From Chloranthus sessilifolius (Eukaryota; Streptophyta; Magnoliopsida; Chloranthales; Chloranthaceae), in NCBI GenBank assembly GCA_021018995.1, contig CM037598.1, forward strand, positions 63,816,671 to 63,880,670: 64,000 nucleotides of DNA, written 5' to 3'. Below the pieces are notes generated by a model. That model made no database searches, was not told the origin of the DNA, and saw only the letters and a program-made list of their open reading frames with translations. This document shows positions 21,786 through 60,498 of the stretch, in pieces (position 1 is the stretch's first letter; each line of letters opens with the position of its first letter). The position numbers and the translations under genes were made by a program.

Positions 21786-21787
<2 letters not shown>

Positions 21788-21847
<60 letters not shown>
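21788..21847. repeat. (TA)n microsatellite
   Basis: About 30 TA units. The matching run in the other LTR (about 30734-30770) is clearly shorter. ORFs reading Ile-Tyr repeats come from it. Confidence 0.95.
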
Positions 21848-21853
<6 letters not shown>

Positions 21854-21895
21854 GTAGCTGCAGTCAAGACATCAGGTTTGAGGGGCTTTCTGAGA

Positions 21896-22982: not shown

Positions 22983-22994
22983 CACCCCCAAACC
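22983..22994 (-). other. Polypurine tract of element L
   Basis: Minus-strand GGTTTGGGGGTG next to the 3' LTR start TGTTAGTCAC. The same sequence type adjoins the Athila-1 3' LTR at 8601-8613. Confidence 0.85.
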
Positions 22995-26217: not shown

Positions 26218-26235
26218 TCCCCGGCAACGGCGCCA
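26218..26235 (-). other. Primer-binding site of element L (tRNA-Asp)
   Basis: The plus strand reads TCCCCGGCAACGGCGCCA, the 3' end of plant tRNA-Asp including CCA as I recall it. The minus strand is therefore its complement. Six bases separate it from the 5' LTR. It would prime minus-strand cDNA synthesis. Confidence 0.9.
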
Positions 26236-26805
26236 AAAACTTGTTGGGGATTTCTAGTGTGCAGATTTATTGTGTAATGATAAAGACAAAATAAAATTAT
26301 AGTAAAACAAGGGATGGATTCAGCACAACAAAAATATCTTAGACCTGCAAGATACAAGGTCCTCTGTAGCAAGTTTTAATAAGTAAGAGTTTATCCCACA
26401 GGGAGTAGTGATCTAAACCTAGAAGGAGTATAGTAGACCTCCAAATCTGGCTACAGATCTGACATTTCTATGAAAATAGTGAAAAGAAAGAGAGTTTTTC
26501 TGTGTCACTAGATCTAATTATTTTATAGAACTACTGGAGATTTTCTAAACTACTGGAGAAATATTAATAAAAGAATGGTTATTTAACTAAAGTGCATAAA
26601 AATAAATCCTAATCCTCCTTCAGATTAAGGTCGCCAATCTTAGTCCTCAGCTATCGGATATTTATGAAAATAAACAATACCGTTACACCATATATCAAGT
26701 TTTCTACCATTGGTCGTCAATCAAGTCTAGGATCCCATCAATACAGATTTAATCAAATCCTAATCCTCCTTCTTCAGATTAAGGTCATCAATCTTAATCC
26801 TCAGC

Positions 26806-29306: not shown

Positions 29307-30731
29307 TCAGCTATCGGATATTTATGAAAATATGCAGTACCGTTACATCATATATCAAGTTTCCTAGCATTGGTCGTCAATCAAGTCTAGGATCCTATCA
29401 ATACAGATTTAATCTAATCAGCAATCAACCAGAAATTTGGGTGTCAATCAAACTCTAGAAAACTGAAGATGGAAAAGTAGAAACCGTTATACTAATCTGC
29501 AAATTCTAACCTGAGTCGTCAATTCAAGTCAAAACTTGGAGATGTTTACAAAACTGAAATACAACTAAACTAAATGATGGAGGAAGATGGATAGAAAAAT
29601 AAAGATTAAATGGTGAGAAATAGACAGCTAGGGCCTGGTTTTCATTGCCAAACAGATCAAGATCTAAGGATATGCAGCCATCCTTCATTTGGCTACAAAC
29701 ATAAATGCAAGGTATAAGAATCTGATCTAGACCGGTGGTTTGGATTCATCTTAAGGCTATGATCTATCCGCCTAAATAGTGACAGATCATCCACTAGATT
29801 TCCTCCATCACTTGCTTGGATTGATCTTATGGTTATGATCTGTCCACTTAAATTGTCACAGATCATTCAATAGATTTCCTCCATTCCAATGTCTTCGATC
29901 AGAATAAGATAATCACTACAGATGTTGTGGATGCAAGGCCACAGGCACAGACACCCACAGGCATATCAAACCCAGGGAAATCAGATGGTCATCAAGAGAT
30001 CTACCAGTTAAGTGGATGAGCTTATTAACAAACTCCTATACACGAATCCGATCAAGAATCTAATGGGAACACAAGATCTTTAGATTTAACTAAGCTTTAA
30101 AATCAACAATTTATTGCTCAAACAAAACAACTTACAATAAACTTGTTCCTAGATCTGTAGTCTGTGCATCGATCCACATTTCTTCATGCCAAAATTACAA
30201 TTACAAACCAGATCCGAGCTACTATCTAGATCTAATCCAACAGGCTAGGTTAGAAAGAGAAGGGGGAAGAAGAAAGAAAAAATAAAACCTAAAACTAAAC
30301 CTAAATGAGCTAAGGAGAACTCAGGATATTCCTTTGTTCCTACTTTCCTTGCTAAAGAGAAAATAGCAAAAGGATAGGTATTTATACATATGCATTGATC
30401 CTTGTGCCTTGGGTTTCAGCCAATCAAAGAGCAGAGATGGATCCCTTCTATTGTGCTTTAGTTGCATTCCCTCCAAATATTTATTCACACCCATGTGCAG
30501 CATTTTCTGTGTATTAGAGTTCCTAATCTGCCCTTGTCAACCACAAAAATGTCTGCTACTCATCTTCATACTTGTTGTCCGTAAAAGGGACCCAAGCTGC
30601 CCTTGTTGTCCATTACTTTTTCCAGTTGCACACCTCAAGTGATTGCCCAGAGAATAATCTTTCTCGCTGCCCCAAAATACCGTCGTTGTTTGTTACCAAA
30701 ATAGCCCCAAATGGACCCCGTCTGAAGTAAG

Positions 30732-30775
<44 letters not shown>

Positions 30776-32140
30776 GCAGCTGCACTTAAGACGCCAGGTT
30801 TGAGGGGCTTTCTGAGAACTCAACGGTTGGATAGGATCTTGACAGCATCTCGACAGATTTGGGGCAAGCTGGAGGTTGGGCTTCTCGACAGGTTGAGATA
30901 TTTAAGCGGGCAAAGGATGCTATGGTGTGAATTGCAGCTGAAACTCTGCATGGCTATAGCTTTGAAGATGTCGATAGGTTTGGGTTGAAAATTTGGTTTG
31001 CTGCTGCAGCTTGTTGTGAGGATTGATGGAGGCTGCAAATGCATTTCGAGAGGTTCCTTTGGAAGCTCATCCATTCGATAGGGTTGAAGGTGTAAATGCA
31101 GCACGGTGTCGATAGTTTCAAACTGAACTTCGCTAGGTTCATTCTGCAGCTTATCAGATGGTAAGTTCGATAGGTTCAAGCTGGTTATTTCAGCATTTTG
31201 ACAGGATTGCAGCAGCATCCTCCATGTGGTTGATAGGTGCTAGGTGTTACTTGCTGTTTCGATAGAATGAAGGTTTCAGCAGAATGTTTCAATAGCTCAG
31301 CTGTAGAGGGCTGCTGCACTTCGATAGGATTGGAAGCTTCTAGTTGTCGACAGGTTTGGTTGCTCTAGCTTCCTCACCATTCAACAGGATGAAGTTTCAG
31401 CTGCATAAACCAATCGACAGGTTCCTTGCAGCATTTTGATAGGTTGCCCCCCCTTGAACTGCTCGATAGGTTGGATGAATGCAGTAGCTTCAGCTCCAAG
31501 TGGTCGACAAGATTGGTTAGAAGGCTGGGCATTTTGTTTTGAGAGGATTGGTGAATGGATTATTGAGAGGATTGTTGAGCCTTTGACAGGTTCAACAACA
31601 GCTCAAGGCTTAAGCAACTATTGCAATGGGTTCAAGGATCCATTCGACAGGCTCCATGGCTACTGATGCAGCACGATAAGTTTGCTATTTTTATTACAGC
31701 AATGCTCTAGAGGAAGAAAGATGTCGAGCTTTATTCAAGCCACCAGTCGATAGGTCCAAGTTCATGTGTAGCTGCTGAATTTTCTACTCCATTGAAAGCT
31801 TCCACTACTGCAACTTGCTTCCAAGTGTGCAACTAGGTGACCCCTTTGCTGCTCCCTATACACTGCTGCTGTGTAGGTGGGGTCCCCAGCTTGAAGATGC
31901 TGCTGTATTTGCAAAAGTCGGGGATAAAACTGATGCCATTCCGTTCAGCCCTCACTCTTAGCTGTTGCATGGCTCCACAACTCCTCTAAATGGCACCTTT
32001 TTAACTGAAAACTGCACTAAGGATGTATTTACCTCCTTGCTGCAAAACAACACTAAAAAAAAATATTAAATACTCTAATTCCTAGCAAAAGTCAGGTTTA
32101 AAGGTGTAGAAAGTGGTAAAAATCAGTGACTAACACCTGT

Positions 32141-35584: not shown

Positions 35585-38067
35585 TGTGATAGCCTAAATT
35601 TCAGCACCCTAAAACCCATCCCATCGGCACGACCCTCGAGGATGTGCCCCATATAATAAGAGGAACACTTGGTATATCCACACAAAAATAAGTAAAACAT
35701 AGACAAAAGAACTAACGCAGAACTAAATCTCTAGTTCTACTATTTAACACCAAAAATATGTAACCCAAAAGATCGTTCTAATCCCATACCTCTACATGGG
35801 CAAAAGAACCAACCTGAACCATCAGTGTTGCAACTACGATCACCCCAGATGGTTCGACAAAAGAATATTTCATATTACATTATCCTTACAAAACAAGCTG
35901 GACATACCAAGCCCTAAATATCTCTCTTAAAATAATGTCAAAGTTCATAGAGGGTCTTCTAAAAGGACCTCTCAGGAGGGGGCTCAGACTCCTCCCCTAG
36001 AACGTATTATGAGTCCTCGAGATTGACGTCACTAGAAGCAGCTCTTAACTTCGCACAGGTGACGTATAGTCAAAGGGTGAGCTACATCCTAGCTCAATAG
36101 GAAAAATATCTGAACAAGTACATCTATCTTACTCACATACATTTCATGACATAAATAAAGCATGATTTCATCACTGTAAAATAATTAGAAAATAGTTTGA
36201 GATGCAAAAATGATAAACAGAATGCTTTTACTACACTACTCATGGCATCTTATACTCACTAGTTCTCATATTTGCAACAAGGCTGGTCTCATGACTTATA
36301 TCCATTAACTTAAATAATCCCCGAGCAATATAGCATCGAGCCCCGATAGAATACCCTCCATCGTCGTCTAATCAAACTATTTTTTATGTAACCTAACCCA
36401 AGTTCCTTTCTCATAGGCGACAGGCACGTAACTACTATACATCCATGGGATGTCTACTAGTGTACAGATTGGCCGCCGTACCAGTCACCGATATCCTGTC
36501 GAGTCAGTCACGGGTATACCACCGCGTCGGTGGGGTATTCTACAAACCTTAAATAAATTGTGCACTACATATAGTTATTCACCATATAATTGTGCTAAAT
36601 ACTTAATAATTCACAGCCTATTCAAATCCCATTCATGGACCTTCACATAACGTGGATCTTAACATCCACCACACATCCCTGTGATGTCACACATTCCGGT
36701 GCATCACTTAGATGCCCAATGCACATATGCATCCCTTAGATGCCCAATGCACATATGCATCCCTGGGATGGCTCAATTCTTTTACTAATTGATTTCCTCA
36801 TTTATCCGTGTACGCACACACACTGTACTTTCTTATTCTTATCTTAGCATTTTAAAAATATAACTATTCAACTAAGCTTTTAAATGAACATGCATCCACA
36901 GAATATCACTACATACATGCTCTCGTAATCAAGTGTACAAGTTCAGAATGTTCCCTACCTCACTCGCAATTTTAATCCATGGATCCTTCAATCCGAGCTC
37001 ATACTTAACCGTCCCAAGGTTCAGCTTAAGCTAAGCCTGGCCAAACACACATAACATATCACTATTAGTGTAAAAACACTGGGGTTAGAAACCTAACCCC
37101 AACTATGAACAGTCCATAAGCAAAAACTCACCAATTGCTTGAATTTGTCCAAACCGATCGAATGATTTTAAATCAATCAAACGATTTGGAAAATTGATCG
37201 AACGATTTTAAATTGATCGAACAAAATCCCAAAATTGATAGAACGATTTTAATTCGTTCAATTGATTTCCTCAGAAATCCATAACACCGAATTTTTGCCC
37301 ATTGCCAAACCGATCGAGTGATTTTAATTTCATTTGCACGGTTCCACAAATCGATCGAACGATTTTATAAATCGTTCGAACGATTTCTCCAGAATCCATA
37401 TTTCACCTTATCCTTCATTGGTCAAAATCGATTGAACGAGTACTAATTTCGTTCGATCGATTTTGCCCATTTCTGATGCCGATCGAGTTCTATCATCTAG
37501 AACTCATCTCATCACCAGCCACACCATTCTTCATCTATTTATCAAACCAATTCACTTAGATTTCTAACCTAGTAGCTAAAACTAGTTTAAAATAGTCAAA
37601 CTTACCATTTCTAACCGTTGAATCCTTTGATCCAAAGCTCTAGCCACACAAGGGTTCCATAAACCCTCAAATCTCGAATCTCCCTTCGATAACAAGCCCA
37701 AATCCGTTAGCTTTTCAATCCTTGATCAATCATTTGTATTTAATACACCATTCTCAATTTCACAACAAAATCCCACTCTCATTTACCCTCTCTAAATTTT
37801 CTCAACAACTCAACCAAAGAGAACATAAATGCTTCCCCCTTTTATAACTCATAACTTACTTGGGTGCAAAGCATATATAACTAACTACATATATGTACAT
37901 ATATATATATATATACACACATATATATATACCAACTAAGTTATATATACCACTTAAACTAACCATCCTAAGTCAACCAAGTCAATGTTGACCCTGTCAA
38001 ACAAACGACTAGTCAGGTCCGCTTCCGGAGGTGCACTATTTAAGCACAAAATTTTTGGGACGTTATA
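35585..38067 (-). mobile_element. Element A 5' LTR
   Basis: 2483 bp from TGTGATAGCC to GACGTTATA; its outer terminus has mutated from TGTAAC to TATAAC in element orientation. A TATA box lies at about 37839-37847 and a motif array at 37155-37475. A tandem copy of about 28 bp near 36709-36755 is absent from the other LTR. Confidence 0.85.
37155..37475. repeat. Motif array in element A 5' LTR
   Basis: Same ATCGATCGAACGATTT family as at 14381-14695, with private mutations in each copy. Confidence 0.75.
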
Positions 38068-38118
38068 GAATGTCCTCTACTGAGCTTAGTTGCTAGCTCA
38101 CCCTGACTATACATCATG
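38068..38118 (+). mobile_element. LTR-C, 51-bp fragment between elements A and B
   Basis: It starts with the GAATG duplication of A and ends with the TCATG duplication of B. It contains a TAGCTCACCCTG block also present in the B LTR (ATGTAGCTCACCCTG near 40241). It therefore continues LTR-C. Confidence 0.65.
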
Positions 38119-38381
38119 TGTAACAACCCTAAAAATCTAAAACACAAACCTGACTATTTCGATCTACGTGCCCGGCACGGAAATCGAGACCCATTTAAAA
38201 TTTAAGAAGTAATATTAGTTGAGATAAAGTTATACCACGGTTAGATTAGTTCACATTTGAATTTTCGTTTAAGTCTGAGTTGGGTAAAGGGTTAGCGTAG
38301 CACTTCGCGTCGTAGCGACCGTGTTAGTGCTCCACACCGGAACAAAAATAAGGGGAAAACAGAAATATCTGTTTTCTTAGC

Positions 38382-38388
38382 TTATAAG
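38382..38388 (+). promoter_or_regulatory. TATA-like box of element B 5' LTR
   Basis: TTATAAG precedes GAAGGAAGGGAGACCTAGAG. The homologous site exists in the 3' LTR and in solo LTR D, at a similar distance from the LTR start. Confidence 0.45.
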
Positions 38389-38858
38389 AGAAGGAAGGGA
38401 GACCTAGAGGGAGTCCTTCTTCTTCTTCTCCCTCTTTCCCTTGCTTTAGAAGCTGAGAAGTCTGTAGCTAGGTTGGTCTGTGAGGGTGTTCCTTGAGAAA
38501 CGGAGTTAGCGGTACCCGGGGATCCTACATTATCCGAGATAGAGGATAGAGAGATGAGCTAGGACACTCCACACTAGCTTAAGAGTGAGTATGGTCTAGA
38601 GGGTTGAAAGGAAACTGGGCATCGACTTATCCAAGCCGTAGCGACAACAAACTCCGGAAACTAGATCCGAAACCCTCATTCAAATCGATTTGCCGAAACC
38701 CCGTGAGGGCCCTAACAAAGGTAAGATTATGTGTTTTAATAGGGGCAAATGAGATGCCCAGGTGTGGGCATTGATGTCATGATAATGGTGGTTGAGAACC
38801 ATTAATGAAAAATAGGGTTGGAGATGAACTCCATTAATGACAGAGTTTCTGTCATTAT

Positions 38859-39484
38859 TGATCGATCAACACAAGTGGTGATCGATCAATAGCAGTGGTG
38901 ATCGATCAATGAAGCCCATTGATCGATCAATCTATATAGGACAGAATAGGGGAACAGAGACCCAAAATGTTAGAAGTTCAATGCCCGAAGGGCATTGATC
39001 GATCAATTTAGGCATTGATCGATCAATGAGGGCATTGATCGATCAACAGGAGAGTGATCGATCATGATATTGGTGATCGATCAGCGTAAGTATTGATCGA
39101 TCATCAGGTGTTGATCGATCAATGAGGTCGGTTGATCGATCAATCAGTATAAAGAGAATGTGTGAGCGAAAGGTGAATTTTTGAAAAAGGGTTGGTGATC
39201 GATCAATGAGAGGTATTGATCGATCAACAGGAGGCATTGATCGATCAACCCAAGTAGTGATCGATCAATTTAAGCTATGTTAAAAATGAGTAGAAGAGAG
39301 GTTATTGATCGATCAATGAGTGTATTGATCGATCAATGATGGTAGGTGATCGATCAATAAGGTGTATTGATCGATCAATTGGGTTGTTGTAGAGTGGAGA
39401 CTAAAAGAGTGGTGATCGATCAATGAGAGGTATTGATCGATCAACAAGGAGCATTGATCGATCAACAGGAGTAGTGATCGATCA
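38859..39484. repeat. Motif array in element B 5' LTR (TGATCGATCAAYR)
   Basis: About 24 copies of the palindrome TGATCGATCA, mostly followed by AT or AC and preceded by AT or G. Gaps are irregular, about 10-60 bp. Nearly the same array is in the 3' LTR (48839-49469), and a second, non-identical one is upstream of ORF3 (45931-46342). Confidence 0.95.
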
Positions 39485-40773
39485 ATAACCCCTGTTTTGG
39501 TTCTGTTTTGGTTTTGTGGATTAAACACCCTCGGACATTGTGCCGGTTAGCTTACTGACACCCCTAACATTTAAAGTACTATGTTTATGGTCTAGGAATC
39601 AAACCCTGACACCGTGAAAAGGCTTTGGATTTGCTTAGAAGATAGATTGACCTGAGGTAGGGGAAAACCAACCTAAACTATTTTTTTGAGTATGATTCCA
39701 TGTTTATCTCATATCTATGCCCTGATTTCTGTTTTTATCAAACATGTGTGCATATCTTGAGTTCTGCTATTTTGATTTCTGTTTCCTGATTCGCATTCTG
39801 AAAACTTGCTTCTGATTCTGTTATCTGATCTGTGAGGTATATACGTATGTGATTTGATGATTTAAACCAGATGATCCCCACCGACCCGGCGGTATATCCG
39901 ATGCACAGCACACTTGTGCACCGCTTGTAATCCCTAATTGCACTCCATAGATGAGGCATTGTTGCACTTTCAAAATTGTTCATGTGAACGACGATTGGTT
40001 GGGGTTTCCTATCGGACATTCCTGTTTACTCCGTGCTATATAGTCATGGGAGTTTCTTAAGTTAAATATACACAATTTAAGCTCTCTGATAATATACTTG
40101 CATAACATCTGATTTCTTGTCTAAAAGCTCAGTAATTGATTTGATTTGTCATGATTGTACGCTCCTGATTTGATTTCTGTTATGAGATGGCATGATCTGC
40201 ATATTCAATTCATTTAATTGGAATTCTTCTATTGAGCTATGATGTAGCTCACCCTGCGTTCTAAATTAATTTTTAGGTTCCGAGGCTGTCGTTAAGAGTG
40301 ACCCGGACTATCACCGACCCAGGCCGAGGTCAGAGACGAGGAGACCGTTCGGAGACGAGTTCTATCCAGTAGCACAGGTACTAGTGTCTCATCTTATTTT
40401 GGATCTTTTGGATTATGGTGTGCCCGGTGGCCACTTTTGTGTACATTTTATTAGGATTACTTATTGTATAGTTACGCATTCTATTCGGAACCACTATTGG
40501 GAACCATTGTTTGGGTGATGGATGTCCATCACCAATGGTTCTTTTTGGTTCCTTTTTGAGAATGCATTTTCTTTGCTTAATATAGAATTAATTGTTTTAA
40601 TATTATTGTTCTTTATGACTAAATGCGTTGATAAGTGACTGGCTCGATCTACCACTGCTGGGTAGTGTCTGCTTGGCTTCCGCTTTACAAGCAGACACAT
40701 ATGATTTGTCTCGGGGATCATCCAGAGTATGATCACGGATGGCGCAGTTTACGGTGCAATCAAACATCCTGAT

Positions 40774-40784: not shown

Positions 40785-42127
40785 TAGGCGTTAGGTTGAA
40801 CTACGGGTTCGGGTTGGATTGTTTCACAATCTAGGTCTTGTCGATGTTGTTGTTTTCACAATGACCGATTATGGGCCCTAAGTTGGAGGAGACGCAGGTA
40901 GAAAGCAGTCGAGAGAGATTCCTCGAGGATGTGCCCGGGTTATAGGCTCGTCGAGGGGCTTGGAGTTCCTATCACAAGCAAATGCGGTTCCATTGGGACC
41001 CAGAGGAGGTGAAGGAGAAAGCGAAGAGAGGATGGGCGGTGTTGGAAGCATTAGCTACCAGCGTCGCTCGTGCCAGAACATTGCTTTAGCTCAGCAGTGA
41101 CTAGACCACCCCATCACTGGTGGATTTTGGAGTTTAGGAGAATGAGACCTCTTAACTTCTCGGGTCAAGCGGATCCCATTGAGGCGAAGGGTGGATAGAA
41201 GAGATGGAAAGCTCTTTGAAGTATTGCAATGTGGACGTAGAGAAAGTCGTTGGGCCACTTTCAAATTGGATGGTGACGCCGGACCTTGGTGGAAGTCGGT
41301 GTCACAAAATAGACAGAGAGAGTTTCTTCACTCCTTGGACATGGGAGGAGTTTACGGTGTTTTATCACAAATACTTCCCGAAAATTGTGAGGCATCAATG
41401 GGAGGTGAAATTCATAGAGTTGAGGCAAGGCGCCATGTCAGTGAGAGATTATGGAGCAGAGTTTGATAGGTTGGCTAGGTTTGCACCTCAACATGTAGCC
41501 ACGGAGTTGATGAGAGCAAGGAAATTCCAACTCGGCCTGAGACAAAATTCTGACGTAAAGACGTCGCCATGTGGGAAATGGAGACTTATGAGGGAGTCAT
41601 GGCCAAGGCTCTCATAGCTGAGGAAGAGAACCAGAAACAATTCTCTTGGAGGGATAAGCAGGCGAGAGAGAGACCATTCCAAGGGCAATCTCAGGATACA
41701 GAGCAAAACAAGAGGGCTAGATTTTCCAGACCTCCGAGATACCCTACGCACTCTCGACCGGCGATTTCTTCAGGACCGAGTTCATATCAGAGAGCAGCAG
41801 CGCCTACATCTTCCAGATCATTTCGACCAGCTGGATCTTCTGGTAGCGGGGCCTCAGTGACTCAGGGACCTTCAAGAGTCTCGTCCTTCACTCCGGCCGC
41901 GATATGTGCAAAGTGTGGGAAACCACACAAGACAGAGGACTGCAGGAGAGAGACAGGGGCATGCTTCAGGTGTGGCAAGATGGGTCACTTGGTTAGGAAT
42001 TGCCCTGAGGAGAGCAAAGAGCGGTCAGGATCGGTATCTACACAAAGATCAGCCCGACCAGTGGTTCACGGTCGAGCTTATGCCGTCACCGCCACCGATG
42101 CTCTGACATCAAATGACGTCATTCAAG
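40785..42127 (+). pseudogene. gag: Element B gag, frameshifted
   Basis: Recognisable capsid blocks (EEMEKLFE-like in the shifted frame near 41195, FKLDGDAGPWWKSVS at 41261, EFTVFYHKYFPK at 41350, RQGAMSVRDYGAEFDRLARF at 41425) are spread over two frames. The nucleocapsid at 41569-42127 is open, with two intact knuckles (CAKCGKPHKTEDC and CFRCGKMGHLVRNC). The N-terminal start was not identified: the first ATG (about 40863) meets a stop soon. At least two 1-base indels lie near 41190 and 41550. The frame ends at a predicted splice donor, CAAG|GTATGA. Confidence 0.8.
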
Positions 42128-42277
42128 GTATGATTAGAATTCAAGAGATATGGTGTTGTTTGATATAATAGACTGGAAAATTAGAAATATATAAATTAAA
42201 TTATTTATTTTGATTATAATAGCACGCATAAACCTACACATCTAGAACGTTACAGTAATGTTGATATTGGTATGTAG
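42128..42277 (+). other. Probable intron between gag and protease, element B
   Basis: This 150-bp A/T-rich gap starts GTATGATTAG and ends GGTATGTAG. Excising it joins NDVIQ-G of gag to the protease frame within the same glycine codon used in element A. Left in, the gag frame stops at 42166-42168. The two intron sequences are hardly alike although position and phase agree. Confidence 0.7.
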
Positions 42278-42849
42278 GTGAGCTGAAACTGTATAGGAGT
42301 TGCGATATTTGCTTCCATAGAGCACGAGCCCTGATAGACCCAGGCTCTACACATTCTTTCGTACGGCCTCAATTTACAAAGGAATTGAGTGCCACTCCAG
42401 AACAACTAGATTTTATCCTGACAGTGTCAATCCCCACAGGTAGTGCAGTGAATGCACTCACCGTGTGTAAATCAGTGATAGTGGCAGTAGATGATCATGA
42501 GACGCGGGCAGATTTGATTCTGTTAGATATGAAAGATTTTGACATCATCTTGGGAATGGACTGGCTATCTGCTTACCACGCAAGTGTGGATTGTCTTCGG
42601 AAGATGGTAGTTTTCCGCCCTCCAAAGGAGCGATCCTTTAGATTCTTCGGAGTGAAGTCTAAGGTAGCTCCTTTGATATCCGCTATTCGGGCAGAGAGGA
42701 TGATGGAGAGTGGATGTAGTGGATATATAGCCTTCCTACAAGAGCAACGGGAGAAGACAAATGTGATATCCGATATTCCCATTGCATGCGAGTATTCCGA
42801 TGTATTTCCTGAGGATTTACCGGGACTACCACCAGATCGGGAGGTGGAG
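42278..42849 (+). CDS. Element B protease and linker
   Basis: The aspartic protease active site RALIDPGSTHSFVRP is at about 42326-42370, followed by LDFILTVSIPTG and LILLDMKDFDIILGMDWLSA, which holds the second conserved family block. The linker (GCSGYIAFLQ, CEYSDVFPEDLPGLPP) leads into RT. The frame is open from the predicted splice acceptor through about 43050. The enzyme would release Gag, RT and integrase from the polyprotein. Confidence 0.8.
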
Positions 42850-44090
42850 TTTGTAATCAATCTAATCCCAGGCACTGAGCCAGTATCAAAGGCTCCCTAT
42901 TGGATGGCTCCAGCAGAATTACAAGAGCTAAAGGAGCAATTGCAAGAACTACTTGACAAGGGTTTTGTGCGACCTAGTGTGTCCCCTTGGGGAGCACCAG
43001 TATTGTTTGTCAGAAAGAAGGATGGTTCAATGCGCTTGTGCACTATCATCGATTAAACAAGTTGACGATTAAGAATCGTTACCCACTTCCTAGAATCGAT
43101 GATCCGTTTGATCAATTGCAAGGAGCGAGGTTCTTTACGAAGATCGACTTGCGGTGGGTTATCATCAACTACGAGTCGAGTCAAGACATTGAGAAGACGG
43201 CGTTCAGAACCAGATATGGGCACTATGAATTCCTTGTTATGCCATTTGGATTGACGAACGCACCTGCGTCTTTCATGGACTTGATGAACCGAGTGTTTAA
43301 ACCACACTTGGACACATCAGTGGTGGTATTTGTAGATGACATCCTTGTCTATTCCAAGACAAGGGAGGAACATGAAGGGCATCTACATGTTACTTTGCAG
43401 ACCCTCAGAGATCACAAACTTTATGCGAAGCTCAGTAAGTGTGAGTTCTGGCTTGACCAAGTTAGTTTCTTGGGTCATATCGTCTCTGCAAAGGGTATTA
43501 CAGTGGATCCGGCTAAGATTGAAGCCGTTGTGAACTGGGAACAGCCGAGGACAGTAACAGAGGTCCGTAGTTTTCTTGGTTTGGCCGGATACTACAGACG
43601 GTTCGTGGAGGGGTTCTCTAAACTATCCGGTCCACTCACTCAGCTCACTAAGAAGAATGCTAGATTTGATTGGACTGATCAGTGTGAGAAGAGCTTTCAG
43701 GAATTGAAGACGCGTCTGACTACAGCACCAGTGTTGGCAATACCTTCTGGCAGAGGAGGTTTTGCTATCTACAGTGACGCATCATATGGTGGTTTGGGTT
43801 GTGTCCTCAACCAGCACAAGAAGGTTATCGCTTATGGCTCTAGACAGCTGAAGGAGCATGAAAAGAATTATCCGACTCATGACTTAGAGTTGGCTGCGGT
43901 AATCTTTGCCTTGAAGATTTGGAGGCACTACTTGTACGGTGAGACGTTTGATATCTTTACCGACCACAAAAGCCTTAAATATTTGTTTACTCAAAAGGAT
44001 TTGAATATGAGACAACGCAGATGGATGGAGTTCTTGAAAGACTACGATTGTTCCATCCAGTATCACCCTGGGAAGGCCAATGTTGTGGCG
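42850..44090 (+). pseudogene. Element B reverse transcriptase and RNase H, small frameshifts
   Basis: RT domain: [14 protein letters not shown] (about 42999), then a frameshift near 43040, [37 protein letters not shown] and catalytic [10 protein letters not shown] (about 43330). RNase [40 protein letters not shown] and [12 protein letters not shown]. Near 43150-43190 about a dozen residues are out of frame (after KIDLR), with the frame restored before DIEKTAFRT, so two compensating indels are present. The domain is otherwise long and open, which is unusual among the elements here. Confidence 0.85.
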
Positions 44091-45237
44091 TATGCTTTGA
44101 GCGTAAAGTCGTCAGCACATCTTATCACCCGAGTACAAAGGTGGCACCTACTTGAGGACCTGGCCTTATGTGATACGCTGATTGATGTTAGAGGTTCAGG
44201 GACACTAATGGCTACCATCGTGATACGCCCTACATTGTTTGACAATGTACGTAAGCTCCAGATGATTGACAATGAGCTTATGGCAATTAGAAGAGATGTG
44301 ATCAACGGGATCAGACCGGATTTTACCATCAAGGATGATGGCACATTGCTATTTCGAGATCGGGTATGCATACCGGATACAAAGGACCTAAAAGACACAA
44401 TTTTGGAGGAAGCGCATAAGTCTACATATGCTATACATCCTGGGAGTACCAAGATGTACCAAGATCTCAAGAGAAGTTTTTGGTGGAGAGGATTAAAGAA
44501 GGACGTGGCAGATTACGTTTCTAGGTGTTTGGTCTGCCAGCAGGTGAAAGTAGACCATCGAAATCCAGCGGGTTTGTTACAACCATTACCAGTGCCAGAG
44601 TGGAAATGGGAGGCCATTTCTATGGACTTTATACTAGGATTGCCGAGCACATTGAGAAAGAATAATGCCATTTGGGTTATTGTAGATGATCGACGAAATC
44701 AGACATTTTCTACCGTGACGGACCCGGACTCGTTTGACAAATAAACTAGCCGAGCTATACATGAAGGAAATAGTTCGACTACATGGCATACCGGTTAGCA
44801 TCGTGTGTGATAGAGATCCGCTATATACATCGCAGTTTTGGCGACGATTCCAGGAAGGCATGGGCACTAAATTGGAATTCAGCTCAGCATTTCATCCTCA
44901 GACAGATGGGCAAACCGAGAGAGTGAACCAGATTATAGAGGATATGTTGCGTGCGTGTATGTTGGACTTTCATGGTTTATGGGATCAACACTTACCTCTG
45001 ATCGAATTCGCTTACAATAACAGTTATCAGTCAAGTATTGGGATGGCGCCTTATGAAGCTTTATATGGACGTCGATGCAGATCTCCACTGAATTGGGAAG
45101 AAGTCGGCGAAAAGCTTGTCTTAGGACCAGCGATCGTGGACAGTACTCGAGACGGTTAGAGTGATTCGCGAAGATTGAGGATGGCCCAAAGTCAAAAGAG
45201 CTATATGCGGATCTTCATCTGACGCAAGTGGAGTTTC
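44091..45237 (+). pseudogene. Element B integrase, frameshifted
   Basis: The zinc-binding segment ([28 protein letters not shown]) and the core start ([10 protein letters not shown], about 44620) are in the RT frame. That frame ends at 44744 after a cluster of small indels at 44680-44740. The rest of the core (CDRDPLYTSQFW, QTDGQTERVNQII, then APYEALYGRRCRSP) is in another frame, 44734-45159. The three catalytic acidic residues are present. Further indels follow at 45150-45235 before the C-terminal domain. Confidence 0.85.
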
Positions 45238-45312
45238 GTATAACCAAATCGCCGACGATAATGATGCCCATGGTTAAAATTAAATCAATAGAGGGTTAAC
45301 ACTTGTTTTCAG
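45238..45312 (+). other. 75-bp intron-like insertion before integrase C-terminal block, element B
   Basis: GTATAACCAA...TTGTTTTCAG separates VEF from VGDKVFVKISP, which are continuous in element A. The borders are GT-AG with a pyrimidine-rich acceptor. Excision does not restore frame exactly, since about two bases seem lost at the donor side, so it may be an intron with a local error or simply an insertion. Confidence 0.35.
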
Positions 45313-45750
45313 GTTGGAGACAAGGTGTTTGTGAAGATTTCGCCAACCAAGGGCGTCATGCGCTTTGGAAAACGCAGAAAGTTGAGTCCTCGATACGTCG
45401 GACCATTTGAAGTGCTTGGAAGGGTTGGAGAAGTCGCTTATCAGATTGCCTTGCCACCACAGTTGGCAAGCATGCACAACGTCTTTCACGTGTCCATGTT
45501 ACGCCGTTACGTACACGATCCGACTCACGTCTTGGATTACCAACCAATAGAACTTCTGAAGGATATGACGGTGATAGAAGAACCAATTGCGATTTTAGAT
45601 CGTCGTGATCAAGTTCTGCGGACTAAGTTAATTCCACTGGTACTAGTCAAGTGGAGAAATCATTCGGACAATCGGTTACTTGGGAACGCTGCGAAATCAA
45701 ATCCGACAGTACCCACATTTGTTTACCCATTGAGAGAGGTAAATTCTTAA
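45313..45750 (+). pseudogene. Element B integrase C-terminus and chromodomain, frameshifted end
   Basis: The block KISPTKGVMRFGKRRKLSPR and GPFEVLGRVGEVAYQ is the usual integrase tail, followed by MHNVFHVSMLRRYV and the chromodomain start LIPLVLVKWRNH. After NH a one-base loss near 45672 changes the frame, so the TWE block of the chromodomain appears in the next frame. The element would be expected to target heterochromatin if intact. Confidence 0.85.
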
Positions 45751-45930: not shown

Positions 45931-46342
45931 TGATCGATCAATAGAGGTTAGTGATCGATCAATCTCATGAGTGATCGATCAACAGAAGGAGGTGATCGAT
46001 CAATGATAGTGAAGGATTTCACCCAGAAGTAAGGTAGGTGATCGATCAATAGCAGTATTGATCGATCAATAGAGCTTCAAGTGATCGATCAACATAGATC
46101 AGTGATCGATCAATTTTGCATTGGAAGGAAAGTAGTGATCGATCAACATTAGTAGTGATCGATCAATAAGGGCGTCAGTGATCGATCAACAGAGGTTAGT
46201 GATCGATCAATGCATCGATTTAGGGCTTAAAGATGCTTCATTGATCGATCAACAAAATCCGTGATCGATCAATGCTGGGGTTTAAGTTAAAAATAGGGGA
46301 TGTCGAACGGTCATTTGCACGAAGCGTTCACTGTGATCGATC
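45931..46342. repeat. Motif array upstream of ORF3, element B (TGATCGATCAAYR)
   Basis: Fifteen copies of TGATCGATCA, nearly all followed by AT or AC as in the LTRs of the same element. Gap lengths and the sequence between copies differ from the LTR array, so it is not a simple copy of it. It ends about 160 bp upstream of the ORF3 ATG. Confidence 0.95.
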
Positions 46343-46505
46343 AAAGGCTTGCACTTCGACCGTCCAATCTCCTCCCCAACTCTTCTCCGGCCATTTCTGT
46401 TCGTTCTCCGACTTGATTCGAGTGGACCTCGCTCCATTCATTCGGTAAATCTCTCGTTTCATAAATTTCGATCTCTCTTTTCAAATTTTTAGCCGAGATT
46501 AGATC

Positions 46506-48056
46506 ATGGGACCTCGCACGAAGAACGCTTCGCGTAAGGTACCCACGTCTCGGGCTCGTACCCCGGTACCGCCCACCATTTCCGTTCCCTTGCCAACCAT
46601 GCCACCTATGGCACCGGTTTCGACCACTGTCCCGACCGTACCCGCGCCCGTTCCGCTCCCCATTGAGCGTGAAGTTCCCAAACCGTGGTGGGCTTCAAAA
46701 ACCTTCCTACCCGAATACGTCTTTGCTTCCTCGCTCTACGAGGACCGACCCGAAATGGCTTGGGCCAAGGGTTACATCCAAAAGCTCGGGTTAAAACCCT
46801 TGCTCGAACCCTTCCACGACCATTATTGCCCACGCATCGTGAGGCTTTTCTTCCAAAACCTACGATGGGGTGATAGTCGCCATCGACTTGTCACGACCAT
46901 CGATGGTTTTGAGTACAAATTCAACCATTTCCATGTCGCGGCGGCACTTCAATGCCCGTCCGCCTATATCGAGACTTGTGGCCTTGATGCCCCGTACATC
47001 AAGGAAGTCTCTTACGCCGATGTGGTCACTAAGATGACCCAAGGCCAACACGGGAGGGGCCAATCCATATCCAGGGCCCAACTACCCGACCGACTGTGGA
47101 TGCTTGATACGTATATCAAGTGTGCACTAAACCCCTTTCTGCACAAGTCCTCGCGGACTGGAGTAGTGCAACAAGCACTATTCTCGGCCTATGAGAACCG
47201 TTGGTTCTCTATGGCAGATTTGGTCATTGAGGGCATCATCAACGCCAATGACCTCATGTCTGAGAAGGTCAAATCCGGGGTTAAGAAATAGATCCCCTAT
47301 GCCCGCCTTATCACCAAACTCGTAGAGCAGTATGCCGCTCTACGAGAAGCCTACACTTTGGCTCCCCACAAGCCACGCTTGGTTGACAACACCAAGGTCT
47401 TTCAATTGAAAGACTGGACCAAGAGCTACAACCTACTTGTGAGACGGCTTCCAGAGGAGGATGAGGGCGCAGTCGAGCCCGTTCCACCTACCATTGTTGA
47501 GGGTTCGATTCCTGCCGAGCCTGCATCAGGAGAGGGGGAGGCCCCACGTGATCCACCACCTCCATCTGAGGTGTCTACCCGACCGACCCCCACTACACCC
47601 CATCGACCGATTCGTCAGCCCGCAGCCCATCCCCCACCATCTTCTTCCGACGACGTCGCCACGATGCTTCGGGAGCTGGTGGAAGGCAACCACCGTATAC
47701 ACGAGAGGCTGGATGGCATGGAGGCATTCCAGCGACAGATGCATCGTCGTCTGGATTACCACGAGGGGATGCATGAGCTCGTCATGCAGCACCTATATGC
47801 CACGACGTCCACCCCGATGATCGCTCATGCTCACAAGACGTCAGGACCCGCTGACTCACCAGCTCACCACCACCGCCTCGTCCCCACATTACCTGCTACT
47901 ATAAGTTATTCTTATGTAATTTATCTGTCTATATCTACAGTGCTCTGCTTAGCATATAAATTATGTTCTGAATACGTGATTATCATTGCATGCTATCTCG
48001 ACTGTCTGATTCTCAATTACATTTATTTGTTAATCTTACAACTAACTATTGCCTGA
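46506..48056 (+). pseudogene. Element B ORF3 (extra protein, one in-frame TAG)
   Basis: Start ATG 46506. It has a basic N-terminus (PRTKNASRKVPTSRAR), then a Pro/Thr/Val-rich stretch. A core follows (WWASKTFLPEYVF, YCPRIVRLFFQNLRW, TKMTQGQHGRGQSISRAQL, ENRWFSMADLVIEGI, then IPYARLITKLVEQY) and a proline-rich linker. The tail has heptads (MLRELVEGNHRIHERLDGM) and looks like a coiled coil. A single TAG at 47289-47291 interrupts an otherwise continuous frame of 517 codons. The last 45 or so residues are hydrophobic and may be translated 3' untranslated sequence. It resembles ORF3 of element A and, in its core, of Athila-1. I infer a nucleic-acid-associated accessory protein. Confidence 0.75.
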
Positions 48057-48106: not shown

Positions 48107-50761
48107 TGTAACAACCCTAAAAATCTAAAACACGAACCTGACTATTTCGATCTACGTGCCCGGCACGGAAATCGAGACCCATTTAAAATTTAAGAAGTAA
48201 TATTAGTTGAGATAAAGTTATACCACGGTTAGATTAGTTCACATTTGAATTTTCGTTTAAGTCTGAGTTGGGTAAAGGGTTAGCGTAGCACTTCGCGTCG
48301 TAGCGACCGTGTTAGTGCTCCACACCGGAACAAAAATAAGGGGAAAACAGAAATATCTGTTTTCTTAGCTTATAAGAGAAGGAAGGGAGACCTAGAGGGA
48401 GTCCTTCTTCTTCTTCTCCCTCTTTCCCTTGCTTTAGAAGCTGAGAAGTCTAGCTAGGTTGGTGAGGGTGTTCCTTGAGAAAGCGGAGTTAGCGGTGCAG
48501 GATCCTACATTATCCGAGATAGAGGATAGAGAGATGAGCTAGGACACTCCACACTAGCTTAAGAGTGAGTATGGTCTAGAGGGTTGAAAGGAAACTGGGC
48601 ATTGACTTATCCAAGCCGTAGCGACAACAAACTCCGGAAACTAGATCCGAAACCCTCATTCAAATCGATTTGCCGAAACCCCGTGAGGGCCCTAACAAAG
48701 GTAAGATTATGTGCTTTAATAGGGGCAAATGAGATGCCCAGGTGTGGGCATTGATGTCATGATAATGGTGGTTGAGAACCATTAATGAAAAATAGGGTTG
48801 GAGATGAACTCCATTAATGACAGAGTTTCTGTCATTATTGATCGATCAACACAAGTGGTGATCGATCAATAGCAGTGGTGATCGATCAATGAAGCCCATT
48901 GATCGATCAATCTATATAGGACAGAATAGGGGAACAGAGACCCAAAATGTTAGAAGTTCAATGCCCGAAGGGCATTGATCGATCAATTTAGGCATTGATC
49001 GATCAATGAGGGCATTGATCGATCAACAGGAGAGTGATCGATCAATGACAGTTGGTGATCGATCAACAGAAGTATTGATCGATCACTGTAGGGTGTTGAT
49101 CGATCAATGAGGTCAGTGATCGATCAATCTGTATAAAAAGAGAATGTGAACAGAAAGGTGAATTTTTGAAAAAGGGTTGGTGATCGATCAATGAGAGGTA
49201 TTGATCGATCAACAGGAGGCATTGATCGATCAACCCAAGTGGTGATCGATCAATTTAAGCTATGTTAAAAATGAGTAGAAGAGAGGTTATTGATCGATCA
49301 ATGAGTGTATTGATCGATCAATGATGGTAGGTGATCGATCAATAAGGTGTATTGATCGATCAATTGGGTTGTTGTAGAGTGGAGACTAAAAGAGTGGTGA
49401 TCGATCAATGAGAGGTATTGATCGATCAACAAGGAGCATTGATCGATCAACAGGAGTAGTGATCGATCAATAACCCCTGTTTTGGTTCTGTTTTGGTTTT
49501 GTGGATTAAACACCATCGGACATTGTGCCGGTTAGCTTACTGACACCCCTAACATTTAAAGTACTATGTTTATGGTCTAGGAATCAAACCCTGACACCGT
49601 GAAAAGGCTTTGGATTTGCTTAGAAGATAGATTGACCTGAGGTAGGGGAAAACCAACCTAAATTGTTTTTTTGAGTATGATTCCATGTTTATCTCATATC
49701 TATGCCCTGATTTCTGTTTTTACCAAACATGTGTGCATATCTTGAGTTCTGCTATTTTGATTTCTGTTTCCTGATTCGCATTCTGAAAACTTGCTTCTGA
49801 TTCTGTTATCTGATCTGTGAGGTATATACGTATGTGATTTGATGATTTAAACCAGATGATCCCCACCGACCCGGCGGTATATCCGATGCCTGGCACACTT
49901 GTGCACCTGCTTGTAATCCTCGGCGCAATTGCACTCCATAGATGAGGCATTGTTGCACTTTCAAAATTGTTCATGTGAACGACGATTGGTTGGGGTTTCC
50001 TATCGACATTCCTGTTTACTCCGTGCTATATAGTCACGGGAGTTTCTTAAGTTAAATATACACAATTTAAGCTCTCTGATAATATACTTGCATAACATCT
50101 GATTTCTTGTCTAAAAGCTCAGTAATTGATTTGATTTGTCATGATTGTACGCTCCTGATTTGATTTCTGTTATGAGATGGCATGATCTGCATATTCAATT
50201 CATTTAATTGGAATTCTTCTATTGAGCTATGATGTAGCTCACCCTGTGTTCTAAATTAATTTTTAGGTTCTGAGGCTGTCGTTCCGGGCACAGAGAGTAA
50301 CCTGCACTATCACCACCTGCAGGCCGAGGTCAAGACGAGGAGACCGACGCTCAAAGCGACGAGTTCTATCCGTATTCGGGTACTAGTTCTTTTGGATTAT
50401 GGTGTGCCCGGTGGCCACTTTTGTGTACATTTTATTAGGATTACTTATTGTATAGTTACGCATTCTATTCGGAACCACTATTGGGAACCATTGTTTGGGT
50501 GATGGATGTCCATCACCAATGGTTCTTTTTGGTTCCTTTTTGAGAATGCATTTTCTTTGCTTAATATAGAATTAATTGTTTTAATATTATTGTTCTTTAT
50601 GACTAAATGCGTTGATAAGTGACTGGCTCGATCTACCACTGCTGGGTGGTGTCTGCTTGGCTTCCGCTTTACAAGCAGACACATATGATTTGTCCCGGGG
50701 ATCATCCAGAGTATGATCCTGGTGGCACGGATTTCTGGGTGCAGAAATCCGGGCTGTCACA
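48107..50761 (+). mobile_element. Element B 3' LTR
   Basis: 2655 bp, TGTAACAACCC to GGGCTGTCACA. It ends with an inverted repeat, GGATTTCTGGGTGCAGAAATCC-like (read as GGATTTCTG and CAGAAATCC), which is garbled in the 5' LTR. Motif array at 48839-49469. Confidence 0.9.
48839..49469. repeat. Motif array in element B 3' LTR
   Basis: The same two dozen TGATCGATCA copies as the 5' LTR. The only notable differences are around 49035-49140. Confidence 0.95.
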
Positions 50762-51157
50762 TCATGTGTATAACACTTAACAGGATACCAGACTTGTGGA
50801 TTGACGACTTAAGGATTGGTATGATTTCTAGGATCGTAGATTCAGTACGTTATGGATTTCGGTAAGTTTTGGCTTGGTGCATTCTTGCTATTATATACGT
50901 ATTGTACACCACTATTAGATGATGGCTGGCCATCACCGGTGGGTTTTTTTAGTTTACTATCCATGTTGGATATTAGAACTGGAGATTTTATTATTGCCAT
51001 GTCTTATCTGCTTGGATTTCTACATGTGTGTGGATGTATCAAGTATTTTGTATCAGATTTTGATCTATGATCTTGCGGTCCGGGTTTTCCCATTTGGTTT
51101 AAGTTAAAAAAATATATATCTAAAAAAATTCAGGTTGGGAAAATTCAGGTTGCCACA
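50762..51157 (+). mobile_element. LTR-C, right fragment
   Basis: It begins with the TCATG duplication of B. A GATGATGGCTGGCCATCACC block matches GATGGATGTCCATCACC of the B LTR. The right end, about 51157 (GGTTGCCACA), is approximate. With no gag-pol seen for this LTR family, LTR-C may be a solo LTR. Confidence 0.5.
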
Positions 51158-57448: not shown

Positions 57449-58172
57449 GCGTGAGAGCTTCATTTACTTTTCATTTTTGGGTTTAGTCTCAAGTTTAACC
57501 GTTTTTGAGTGTTCTAGTGTTCTGAAAATTGTGTTTCAGCGATATTGAGTGATGTAACCGTTGGATTGGGATGGCGTTTCTTCCTATATTTGTTATTTCA
57601 CCTGATCTTCGTCCTAGTGTGATGTCCGAGGAGAGTATTATTATGAGAATGGGCAGTATTGGGAATGAGGGCACTACTCTTCACACCATTCCTTTTTAGG
57701 GAGCAGTGAAGGCAGCATTGATGGGGCGGCGGCGGAGGAAGTGAAGATGGCGGGGAGAGGAGGTGTTGTAAATGGAGGGATGTATTATGCAACCAATCCT
57801 TTCGTCCCTTCTGCCGGTGGCTCGTTTAAGTTCTCCAAGTCTGATGGCAACATCTCTAAAGCCTCAGATTGGATGTTTTGCTCCTCTTTTTAGCTCATTG
57901 TAGTTTTTATTTTCATTTTGGGTTGTATGTTAGGGTTTAGGTTTTCATTTTGGGTTGTAATTTATGAGGTATGTGTTAAGACCTGAAAAGTACCACTTTT
58001 TACCCCTTAACTGAACCTTTGATTAGACCCTTAGCCATCTAATAAGTTCTTGTTAAGTATTTTATGTAGGTAATAATCAGCAGTGAAATAAAGCCATGAA
58101 TCCTGCTAAGGAGCCTATTTTGGCACCAGAAGTCCCTCAGAAGGATGGACTATGAATCCAGACTTGAAATGA

Positions 58173-58925
58173 GCCTCACGCAGCTAACCCAAGATTTAGA
58201 GGATTCAGGAGAAATATGCCTCGCGCAGTCCAACTGAGCTTCCCAAGACTTTACAACAACTTCTCGTGCAGTTGAGTGACTAAAGAGCTTCAGAAGCACA
58301 AACTCGAGCAGCTCTCGCGAAGCTCAAGAGTAGAACACATCGCACAGTCTCGCGCAGTTCAAAGCAGACCTCTCTCAACCTCGCGCAGTTTGCTCAGAAT
58401 GGCTGAGGAGAGAGAGCTTCAGAAGACTCTTCGCGCAGCTGTCGCGCAGTAGCCATGGGATGCAAATATCAGAAGAGAACTCCTCACGTAGTTCTCATGC
58501 TATTCAAGAAGAAAGCATCCTCGCGAAGACAGAGCCATCCTCGCGAAGATCAATTAAGACATGGAACCTCGCGCAGTTCAGAACTCATTAAAGCCTAGCG
58601 AGGAAACTCGCGAAGTCCATTGAAGAGAAGTCCTCGCACAGTTCTCGCGCTATTCAAATCCTTCCTCGCGAAGATCAACCCAGCGAATGCGCAGCTACCT
58701 CGCGACCGCTTGAACTCCAACCCCGCGACATCTGAGGCTTTGATGTCTACACAACCTCGCGAAGCCCAATCCAGCGAGTGCGTAATTCTCTACCGCGTGA
58801 CTGCCTGAAGAGCAAACCAAGGCAACCTCGCGACGGTTGAAGCTTCAATGTCAAACCATCCTCGCGAAGAGCAAGAGCTACCACGCGACATGTCTAGGAA
58901 ACAATAGTCACCTAGCGAAGCTCAG
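58173..58925. repeat. Motif array in Athila-2 LTR (CTCGCGAAG/CTCGCGCAGTT type)
   Basis: Around 25 copies of CCTCGCGAAG, CTCGCGCAGTT or near variants, with a TCGCGA palindromic core, at irregular spacing. Its position in U3 is the same as that of the CTCGAGAGGTT array in Athila-1, but the motif is different. Confidence 0.85.
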
Positions 58926-59103
58926 AACTTCAACTTCCATCCCTGCCGCAGAGGACTTTCTAGGAATTTCTAGCGATTAGGACACGCACTCCCAAGCTTA
59001 ATTCTCTGTGCATGCACCCCGAGGCATCCAAGGGTCACTATTAGGCCACGTGGCATCGTTAAAATTAGGGATTCCTAACCCTAATGTGCCGCCACACCAC
59101 TGC

Positions 59104-59110
59104 TATATAA
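59104..59110 (+). promoter_or_regulatory. TATA box of Athila-2 LTR
   Basis: TATATAA followed by ACCCATACTTAG, about 180 bp downstream of the motif array. Confidence 0.65.
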
Positions 59111-59436
59111 ACCCATACTTAGCTTAGGTTTAGAGATCTTAGAGCACGTCTCATCTCTTGGAGATTTGATCTGAGATCGTTTTTCTTTTCTTTTGTAGCT
59201 GTAAGTAGTTTTCTTTTTCTTTTTCCTTTTCTCCATAGTCCAGCACTTGCTGACTATGTCTTTCTATGCATTTTTAACTAGTTTCATGGAAGTTTTGTAA
59301 TTAGATTTTTACATTATGGGATTTGTGTTTGAATGCGATCTGCTCTGTGCAAGGCAATTGCCTTGTGATCCGCTAGTGCTTTGGCTATGATTCAAAGTAA
59401 TGGAGGACTGATTCTAAGGGCCACTCAGATCCAAGT

Positions 59437-59990
59437 GACCTGTGTGTCTGGGCTATCATGGTCCTATACAGCCTTAGCCCCACCACAGGACCCACTAGAT
59501 GTGAAATCCCCATGGGAGCTTGAGCTGGTAGCCTTGTGACCATGGTGGTGGCAGCGATATTCTTATTTTATCTTGGGCTCCGTGAGGAGGATGGCCTCTG
59601 GGATAGTCTGTCACTATTCAAGTGGACAGGTTATAGCCTTAGGGTGATTCTAATCCACTGATCCAAGATGGATCCTTCTTCTCTGCACCTGAGCTTGTAT
59701 TAGCCTGGTGGGAGATTGTGCAGAGCCAGACTCCCCTATATTTGTATAGATCTGCTATCAGCTGTTAGATCTGATCTGGTTATTGAGATTGTAGGCTTGT
59801 GACTGGACCATTGTAGCCTCATTCAAGCAACGGACAGCTAGATCGTAGGTTGTACTCAATCTCTTGCTGGTTTTATGTGTCTGGGCTATCATGGTCCTAT
59901 ACAGCCTTAGCCCCACACATAGATCCTTAGAGGTTGAGGTTCCCTATGGATTCTTGAGCTGGTAGCCTGGATGAAATAGTGCCTACAATG
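59437..59990 (+). repeat. Partial tandem duplication in Athila-2 LTR
   Basis: The two blocks begin TGTGTCTGGGCTATCATGG and continue into GAGCTGGTAGCCT, about 434 bp apart. The nested LTR fragment of Athila-1 has a comparable doubling (about 6880 and 7330). The Athila-1 3' LTR shows only one copy. Confidence 0.65.
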
Positions 59991-60498
59991 TATAACCTTA
60001 AGGGATCGAATCATGGCAGAGAGATGGGTTGGATCCTTTCTCCTCAGTGGTGATAACGTAGCCATTGGACAGGATTTCTATAACATCAGATCTGAATCTG
60101 AGTTACAAAACTCCTCTGATCTAGGCTCAATAACATACTTCTCACTCTTTTATATTTATTTTCCACACTCCATCCATCCTCTCAACCCTTTCTGTAGTTT
60201 AGACATTAGGCTACCATAGGATCTGTAAACTAAGTGACCTTAAACTCCCTTCCCTTAAGGATTGCCAGATCTGTAGTCAGATCTGGAGGGACTACTAGTG
60301 ATGGCTCCCTTGGAGTTGTAGATCATCTTTCCCTGTGGGACAAACTCCTACTTATCAAAACTTGCCACAATGGACCCTGTATCTTGCAGGTCTAGGACTT
60401 CTCGGTTGTGCTGATTTCATCCCCTATTTTATTTTGATTTTAAATTTCTTTCAGCACAAACAAATAAAGAAAGCACAGCTGGGGTAGCAACAAGTTTT

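Follow-up and report, generated by a model that had tools for sequence, protein, structure and literature searches.

A short motif, TGATCGATCA, forms dense arrays in both long terminal repeats (LTRs) of the retrotransposon that we call element B, and again in the spacer directly upstream of its accessory gene, ORF3. Other elements nearby carry motifs of their own in the same two places. With somewhat better than even confidence, we propose that a trans-acting protein specific to each family, most probably encoded by ORF3, binds the arrays as clusters of double-stranded DNA sites and would thereby keep the LTR and ORF3 promoters active in a self-regulating loop. Extra genes downstream of pol are widespread in plant retrotransposons and of unknown function, and a private motif that stands in the LTR and before ORF3, conserved amid changing surroundings, is a concrete candidate target for ORF3. 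The first-pass annotation of this DNA had suggested a binding site or an RNA/DNA structure serving both the LTR and ORF3, and its overall interpretation is partly supported by our results.

The window, that is the whole stretch of DNA analysed, is 64 kb long, and all positions are given in its coordinates. Element B is laid out like a full Ty3/Gypsy element, with target-site duplication, paired LTRs, gag, protease, RT/RNaseH/integrase, spacer and ORF3. Its parts, the motif arrays and a related LTR are as follows.

38119 to 40765, plus strand: 5' LTR of element B, starting with TGTAACAACC, end approximate; 96% identical to 48107-50718.
38859 to 39484: array of 24 exact TGATCGATCA copies in the 5' LTR.
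41554 to 45747, plus strand: frames for gag (zinc knuckle), protease, RT/RNaseH/integrase and the integrase C-terminal SH3 domain, from Pfam.
45931 to 46343: array of 15 exact TGATCGATCA copies in the spacer between pol and ORF3.
46506 to 48053, plus strand: ORF3, interrupted by TAG at 47289-47291.
48107 to 50761, plus strand: 3' LTR of element B, from the alignment of the LTR pair.
48839 to 49469: array of 24 exact TGATCGATCA copies in the 3' LTR.
26807 to 29306, minus strand: LTR of a B relative, apparently solo, inside another LTR; 67-71% identical to the B LTR in pieces.

By eye, a target-site duplication TCATG was found around element B at 38114-38118 and 50762-50766. Pfam domains occur in the order zinc knuckle, RVP_2, RVT_1, RT_RNaseH, Integrase_H2C2 and SH3_Tf2-1, and no chromodomain was found by Pfam in the scanned piece of B. 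The spacer from pol to ORF3 measures 755 bases. The two pieces of ORF3, 46506-47288 and 47292-48053, were searched separately. The clade labels Tekay and Athila are names from the first-pass annotation, with no tree behind them.

The window holds 76 exact copies of TGATCGATCA (100 shuffles gave a mean of 0.10 and a largest value of 2). The earlier figures of about 24 copies in each LTR and 15 in the spacer, with none elsewhere in the element, proved correct: exact counts are 24, 24 and 15, and zero outside the LTR and spacer arrays. One mismatch being allowed, no further site was found in the B LTRs and spacer, a single one lies inside ORF3 at 47818 (n=1), and three belong to the solo LTR, whose array at 28121-28540 on the minus strand also has 12 exact copies. 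One isolated exact copy stands at 11484. Start-to-start steps are mostly 20-21 bp in the LTR and spacer arrays alike, approximately two helical turns. The DNA between the copies does differ, as annotated: no identical pair was found between 19 inter-motif segments of the LTR and 10 of the spacer, and mean identity was 0.45 between arrays vs 0.48 within each. Neither array is a copy of the other.

In the 2.17 Gb genome TGATCGATCA occurs 102,427 times, in comparison to 1,418 copies of a reversed control. The motif marks a large family and is not private to one copy of element B. Three TGATCGATCA clusters fetched from the first genomic places listed all lay in B-LTR-like sequence (66-85%, longer pieces), and two single-copy places had no match to the B LTR.

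We then compared motif and surrounding positions. Between the two LTRs of B, none of 240 motif columns differs, while the 407 other array columns hold 19 substitutions and 7 indel columns (Fisher 1.5e-4 on substitutions alone, a value which is too favourable since the differences are clustered). The differences gather at 38462-38519, 39064-39167, 39905-39935 and 40293-40403, and resemble conversion or template-switching patches with a relative. The same comparison was extended to four B-family copies whose ORF3 is 85-88% identical to that of B, picked from 146 matches for lower identity and long frames. These have 10, 14, 10 and 14 exact TGATCGATCA copies in the spacer and 20, 18, 20 and 19 in the fetched part of the LTR. 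Against B, motif positions differ at 0/100, 8/150, 5/150 and 1/150 sites (0-5%) and inter-motif positions at 44/183, 88/259, 90/245 and 77/260 (24-37%), five of 15 motif slots of copy L030 falling in alignment gaps. One-mismatch sites number 3, 6, 8 and 4 in the four copies. Seven of these 21 sites carry a transition in the central CG, as expected of methylated copies after insertion, which may be the cause. The solo LTR is only about 68% identical to the B LTR yet retains 12 exact copies. These alignments indicate that TGATCGATCA is under constraint.

ORF3 is constrained as well. Among 146 scored relatives (first piece as query), which are only the closest part of 46,342 first-look candidates, 99 have no stop in the query region by hand count, and the frames of the four B-family copies are 479-491 aa long. 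In the first half of ORF3, comparing B with each of these copies gave dN/dS of 0.09-0.11 at dS 0.63-0.70, and comparing the copies with one another gave 0.15-0.22; with the full frame, the latter comparison gave 0.17-0.21. Such ratios indicate a real gene under purifying selection. A genome copy at C14:99827408-99828190 is 100% identical over the query (window 46506-47291) and its open frame likewise runs to 262 residues; this points to multiplication of a copy carrying the early stop, or to duplication of the region.

The ORF3 genes of A, E4 and E5 (chromovirus-like) and of Q, R, S and T (Athila-like) are similar to that of B (E 7e-32 to 3e-6; for the four Athila-like loci, 3e-16 to 3e-6). 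PF20167 (Transposase_32) gave 15.3 bits with B ORF3, under the Pfam gathering cut-off of 45, and membership in that family was not accepted; two B-family genome copies scored 14.9 and 13.4 bits and two others none, and the ORF3 pieces of A, Q, R and S had no Pfam match to it. DUF1985 had no match at E<=10 in any scanned ORF3 piece, with HMMER filters that discard most weak matches, and Pfam detected no recognised DNA-binding domain in these pieces. A collection of 5.8 billion proteins held no ORF3 homologue at E<=10 (343 candidates), and the ORF3 profile had a single, chance-level match (E 0.51) among solved structures.

We surveyed 264 contiguous kb, the window plus 100 kb on each side, where nine elements have a readable stretch after pol. 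The own LTR and own spacer of an element share short words above random pairings (permutation p 0.00036, 0.00028 and 0.00043 for words of 6, 7 and 8), a result carried mainly by B, A and P, the window used for Q there having missed the Q LTR. The best-ranked spacer was the element's own in just 3, 3 and 4 of the nine, respectively. In an analysis of half-sites centred on CG, with LTRs taken from pairs where found, the commonest half-sites agree between LTR and spacer in six of the nine:

B: TGAT, 48 in the LTR and 30 in the spacer.
A: AAAT, 8 in the LTR and 7 in the spacer.
P: CTAT, 14 in the LTR and 9 in the spacer.
Q: CTCT and CTGT, 9 and 7 in the LTR, 5 and 5 in the spacer.
Element 57972-71711: CTCG, 11 in the LTR and 4 in the post-pol stretch.
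S: TTTT and TTTG, 6 and 4 in the LTR, 7 and 5 in the spacer; this LTR was placed by its array and not by a pair.

At least 8 of one half-site were found in 36 of 740 windows scanned across the 264 kb, the largest value among 300 resampled windows being 6, and by our own assignment 26 of the 36 lie in named LTRs or post-pol stretches, the other 10 having no assignment. Two of the Athila-like elements have the following features.

-3066 to -912: other LTR of element Q, from the LTR pair.
2192 to 3194, plus strand: spacer of Q with CTGTCGA, CCTATC and CTCTCGA sites, before ORF3 at 3195.
8614 to 10791, plus strand: 3' LTR of Q with CTGTCGA and CTCTCGA sites, clustered at 8932-9418.
57972 to 60492, plus strand: 5' LTR of an Athila-like element that extends past the window to 71711; CTCGCG forms an array at 58219-58869.

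The post-pol stretch of the latter element, outside the window, has four CTCGCG/CGCGAG sites and its pol none in 5.7 kb. Among the nine elements, four B-family copies and eight copies of the A family discussed below, none with an array and an identified LTR is clearly mismatched, in line with the matching that had been predicted. Q is the loosest case. The annotated element "Athila-1", probably Q, had been said to repeat the pattern with its own motif, and it does so for CTGTCGA (6 copies in the LTR and 5 in the spacer) and CCTGTCG (4 and 4), but the commonest 7-mer of the spacer, ACCTATC, is found 6 times there and only twice in the LTR. R has CTCG sites in its spacer, and its LTR was not found in the 264 kb. 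E4 and E5 retain ORF3 remnants and showed no clear array in LTR or spacer in the half-site analysis; by eye, E4 has only decayed CTCGC-like sites.

P and element 57972-71711 have no detectable ORF3 in this copy, yet their arrays match. On the other hand, the chromovirus-like element T1 (-99999 to -90955), also with no detectable ORF3, has a 3' LTR zone without a CG-flanked array (top half-site CCAT, 6), the fetched sequence ending within its 5' LTR. We rejected a cluster of ACCGTTG at -89588 as an LTR array, as it lies beyond the T1 LTR. The ORF3 locus T (-42738) was excluded from the nine-element test because an inverted pol fragment precedes its ORF3.

Further repeats were seen in the same DNA. 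An LTR-like stretch at 10790-12845 has an array of CCGATCGATT type (half-site CGAT beside CG, 12 in 700 bases) unlike those of its neighbours, and -75326 to -74678 holds an array of TTAATCGA/TCGATTAA sites with 18 copies of TAATCGA. Element N (19801-32136) carries CGATAGG sites in its LTRs (4 and 6, all in one orientation), a motif as in P; no pol or ORF3 was detected in its 3.3-kb interior and it is probably non-autonomous. A 2.8-kb direct repeat (87%) with GAGCTGC/CTGCAGC clusters lies at -16097 to -7903.

Element A allowed the matching to be followed within a second family. Its features in the window are as follows.

16489 to 17163, minus strand: ORF3 of element A, 37% identical to B ORF3 over 176 aa.
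17475 to 17860, minus strand: spacer array of AAATCGTTCGATCGAAAT-type sites.
14380 to 14700, minus strand: LTR array, within the LTR at 12845-15292.
35585 to 38064: second LTR, from the LTR pair.

Pfam gave SH3_Tf2-1 in element A and also Chromo, the latter at E 5e-05 and under its cut-off. The element is old. It had been annotated as doing the same as B with a motif of its own, but in the window this motif, of CGTTCGAACG / AAATCGTTCGATCGATTT type, has decayed; it is clear in relatives elsewhere in the genome. Eight relatives were picked from 150 ORF3 matches, mostly for long frames. Sites of CGTTCGAACG / AATCGWTCGAWCGATT type stand in both LTR and spacer in eight of the nine A-family elements, A included; the ninth, C12, has them in the spacer, and its second piece has no match to A-family LTRs. 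All nine spacers, with 12-32 sites each, exceed the maximum of 200 resampled sequences (means 2.7-5.0), and the LTR pieces exceed their resampled maximum in seven of eight (the exception, C3, has 9 vs 10). Since the non-LTR piece of C12, with other CG sites, also beats its resampled maximum (10 site-like matches vs 8), this control is not specific.

The two families do not share their motifs: TGATCGATCA was absent from 18 A-family pieces and CGTTCGAACG from 10 B-family pieces. Within the A family, C11 and C3 have mainly the TTTCGTTCGAACGAAA type in LTR and spacer alike, and the other elements are mixed in both. The inner-base fraction correlates between LTR and spacer (r 0.80, p 0.010) and the half-site permutation gave p 0.006, C12 being included in both. 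By sequence comparison, motif variants covary between LTR and spacer within the A family, and as the copies are related and not independent, few truly independent motif changes stand behind this.

The spacer also has the look of a promoter. Seven of the nine A-family spacers have a TATATA/TATATT box between most of the array and ORF3, and a donor-like GAGGTAA site lies between this box and the ATG in all five spacers read to the ATG. Thus, the A-family spacer resembles an internal promoter with a leader intron, and it is probable that the spacer serves as an internal ORF3 promoter. In element B, inspection by eye showed TATA-like TTATAAGA (near 48370) and donor-like AAAGGTAAGA (near 48700) upstream of the 3' LTR array, with donor- and acceptor-like sites flanking the LTR array; these may be promoter and splice signals.

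How could these observations be explained? In the reading that we favour, a family-specific protein would bind the array as double-stranded DNA, both in the LTR and upstream of ORF3. Since families differ in their code, and the code precedes the only accessory gene, this protein is probably ORF3 itself. Once bound, it would keep the LTR promoter and the probable internal ORF3 promoter of its own family active, either as a transcriptional activator or, like VANC, by opposing DNA methylation. The ORF3 product acting on its own promoter would then form a self-regulating loop.

It may be asked whether host transcription factors, another one for each family, bind the arrays instead, the LTR and ORF3 promoters sharing sites to fire in the same cells and ORF3 having an unrelated role. 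LTR enhancer arrays bound by host factors are of an established kind, and the TATA-like box after the array in the A-family spacers agrees with such a function. However, six elements with differing motifs in 264 kb would need several factors, all with CG-containing sites. The A-family subgroups, moreover, carry the same variant in LTR and spacer, and the position of the array before ORF3 would be left without a reason. We regard host factors as an unlikely explanation.

A role in RNA, in which self-complementary repeats of the leader and the 3' region bring about dimerisation or packaging of the genome, or long-range pairing, seems to us quite improbable. Folding in comparison to shuffles gave z -10.9 for the B spacer and z -4.2 for the A LTR array, as the RNA-structure option of the first-pass annotation would have it, but good folding of palindromes is trivial. 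The Athila-like LTR array at 58480-58880 showed no excess structure (z -1.2), thus RNA structure cannot be the common function. Nor is palindromy, which had been put forward for the motif and holds in B, general across families: P and element 57972-71711 have asymmetric sites, those of P not being full palindromes. In the spacers these asymmetric motifs stand in both orientations (5:4 in P, 2:2 in the 57972 element), and the LTR sites of the 57972 element all point one way (14:0 and 11:0), which also speaks against pairing. Asymmetric sites in both orientations, together with the z of -1.2, favour recognition of DNA over that of RNA.

A shade less probable again is that the arrays have no function and were left behind by turnover of tandem repeats and by gene conversion between LTR and spacer. 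Retand elements, according to the accessible text of PMC11963269, commonly carry tandem repeats in the region from pol to the 3' LTR, and the clustering of the B LTR differences recalls conversion patches. Such turnover would, however, homogenise the whole 20-bp unit, whereas here the 10-bp motif stays the same and the intervening 10 bp do not. Least probable, in our view, is that the host targets the motif for silencing or heterochromatin and that family history has retained it: CG is the main methylation context in plants and every motif found contains CG (in an analysis centred on CG), but elements would be expected to lose such sites, which are instead conserved at dS of about 0.65.

Among known systems, sunflower Athila elements have a 3' aORF(+), described in the accessible text of PMC11728184 as a 487-aa sense frame with Transposase_32 (PF20167) between pol and the 3' LTR. 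ORF3 resembles it in position, in length (487 vs 479-491 aa here) and in partial PF20167 similarity; the difference is that motif arrays shared by LTR and spacer are not mentioned in that part of the paper. The sunflower Tekay aORF lies 5' and is said there to match no known domain, and the accessible part of PMC12844716 discusses VANC beside this aORF with no mention of motif arrays. Retand elements likewise have repeats and an accessory ORF downstream of pol, the repeats being family-specific, and a regulatory role was suggested for their region between pol and 3' LTR (PMC11963269, accessible text). Their TRP28 ORFs, however, are antisense with domain PF04195, and the same text does not speak of LTR repeats. 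We found no report of motif sharing between LTR and spacer in LTR retrotransposons in the open literature, a body outside which most subscription papers and all preprints fall, so this is no proof of absence; titles among the matches listed for open papers containing the TGATCGATCA string were unrelated.

The VANDAL transposons and their VANC proteins offer a further parallel. In both cases an element-encoded accessory protein accompanies short family-specific motifs that are dense in non-coding parts, and the motif arrays diverge between related families (PMC5735166 and PMC10398659, accessible parts). Such dense motifs in non-coding regions are found here, and are absent in E4 and E5. According to the accessible text of PMC5735166, VANC21 removes methylation and binds arrays of YAGTATTAY in non-coding DNA, and the targets of VANC6 carry other motifs. 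The VANC21 sites share one orientation, whereas those described here contain CG and are palindromic in some families. Binding and hypomethylation were demonstrated for VANC21 (PMC5735166, accessible text), while for ORF3 binding is a proposal and hypomethylation one possible effect. VANDAL are DNA transposons whose VANC carries DUF1985; here we deal with LTR retrotransposons and an ORF3 weakly like PF20167. Membership in VANDAL/VANC was ruled out, with gag, PR, RT, RNaseH, INT and two LTRs present and no Mutator-like DNA transposon with VANA, and identity of ORF3 with VANC was rejected as no scanned piece matches DUF1985 at E<=10. The resemblance to VANC is thus an analogy, which is all that the first-pass annotation had claimed for it.

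More tentatively, and with less than even confidence, we suggest that a VANC-like recognition of self versus other has arisen in LTR retrotransposons, where ORF3 of chromovirus- and Athila-like elements would be a DNA-binding anti-silencing factor or activator, reading private CG codes in LTR and ORF3-promoter arrays that co-evolve within one genome. The proposed codes are TGAT|CG for B, CGTTCGAACG for A, CTAT|CG for P, CTCT and CTGT|CG for Q, and CTCG|CG and TTTT|CG for others. With such a rule, sequence would suffice to assign families their regulators, for non-autonomous elements and solo LTRs too. If ORF3 does bind the motif, retrotransposons would have evolved, apart from VANDAL transposons, a family-specific control of their own silencing or transcription.
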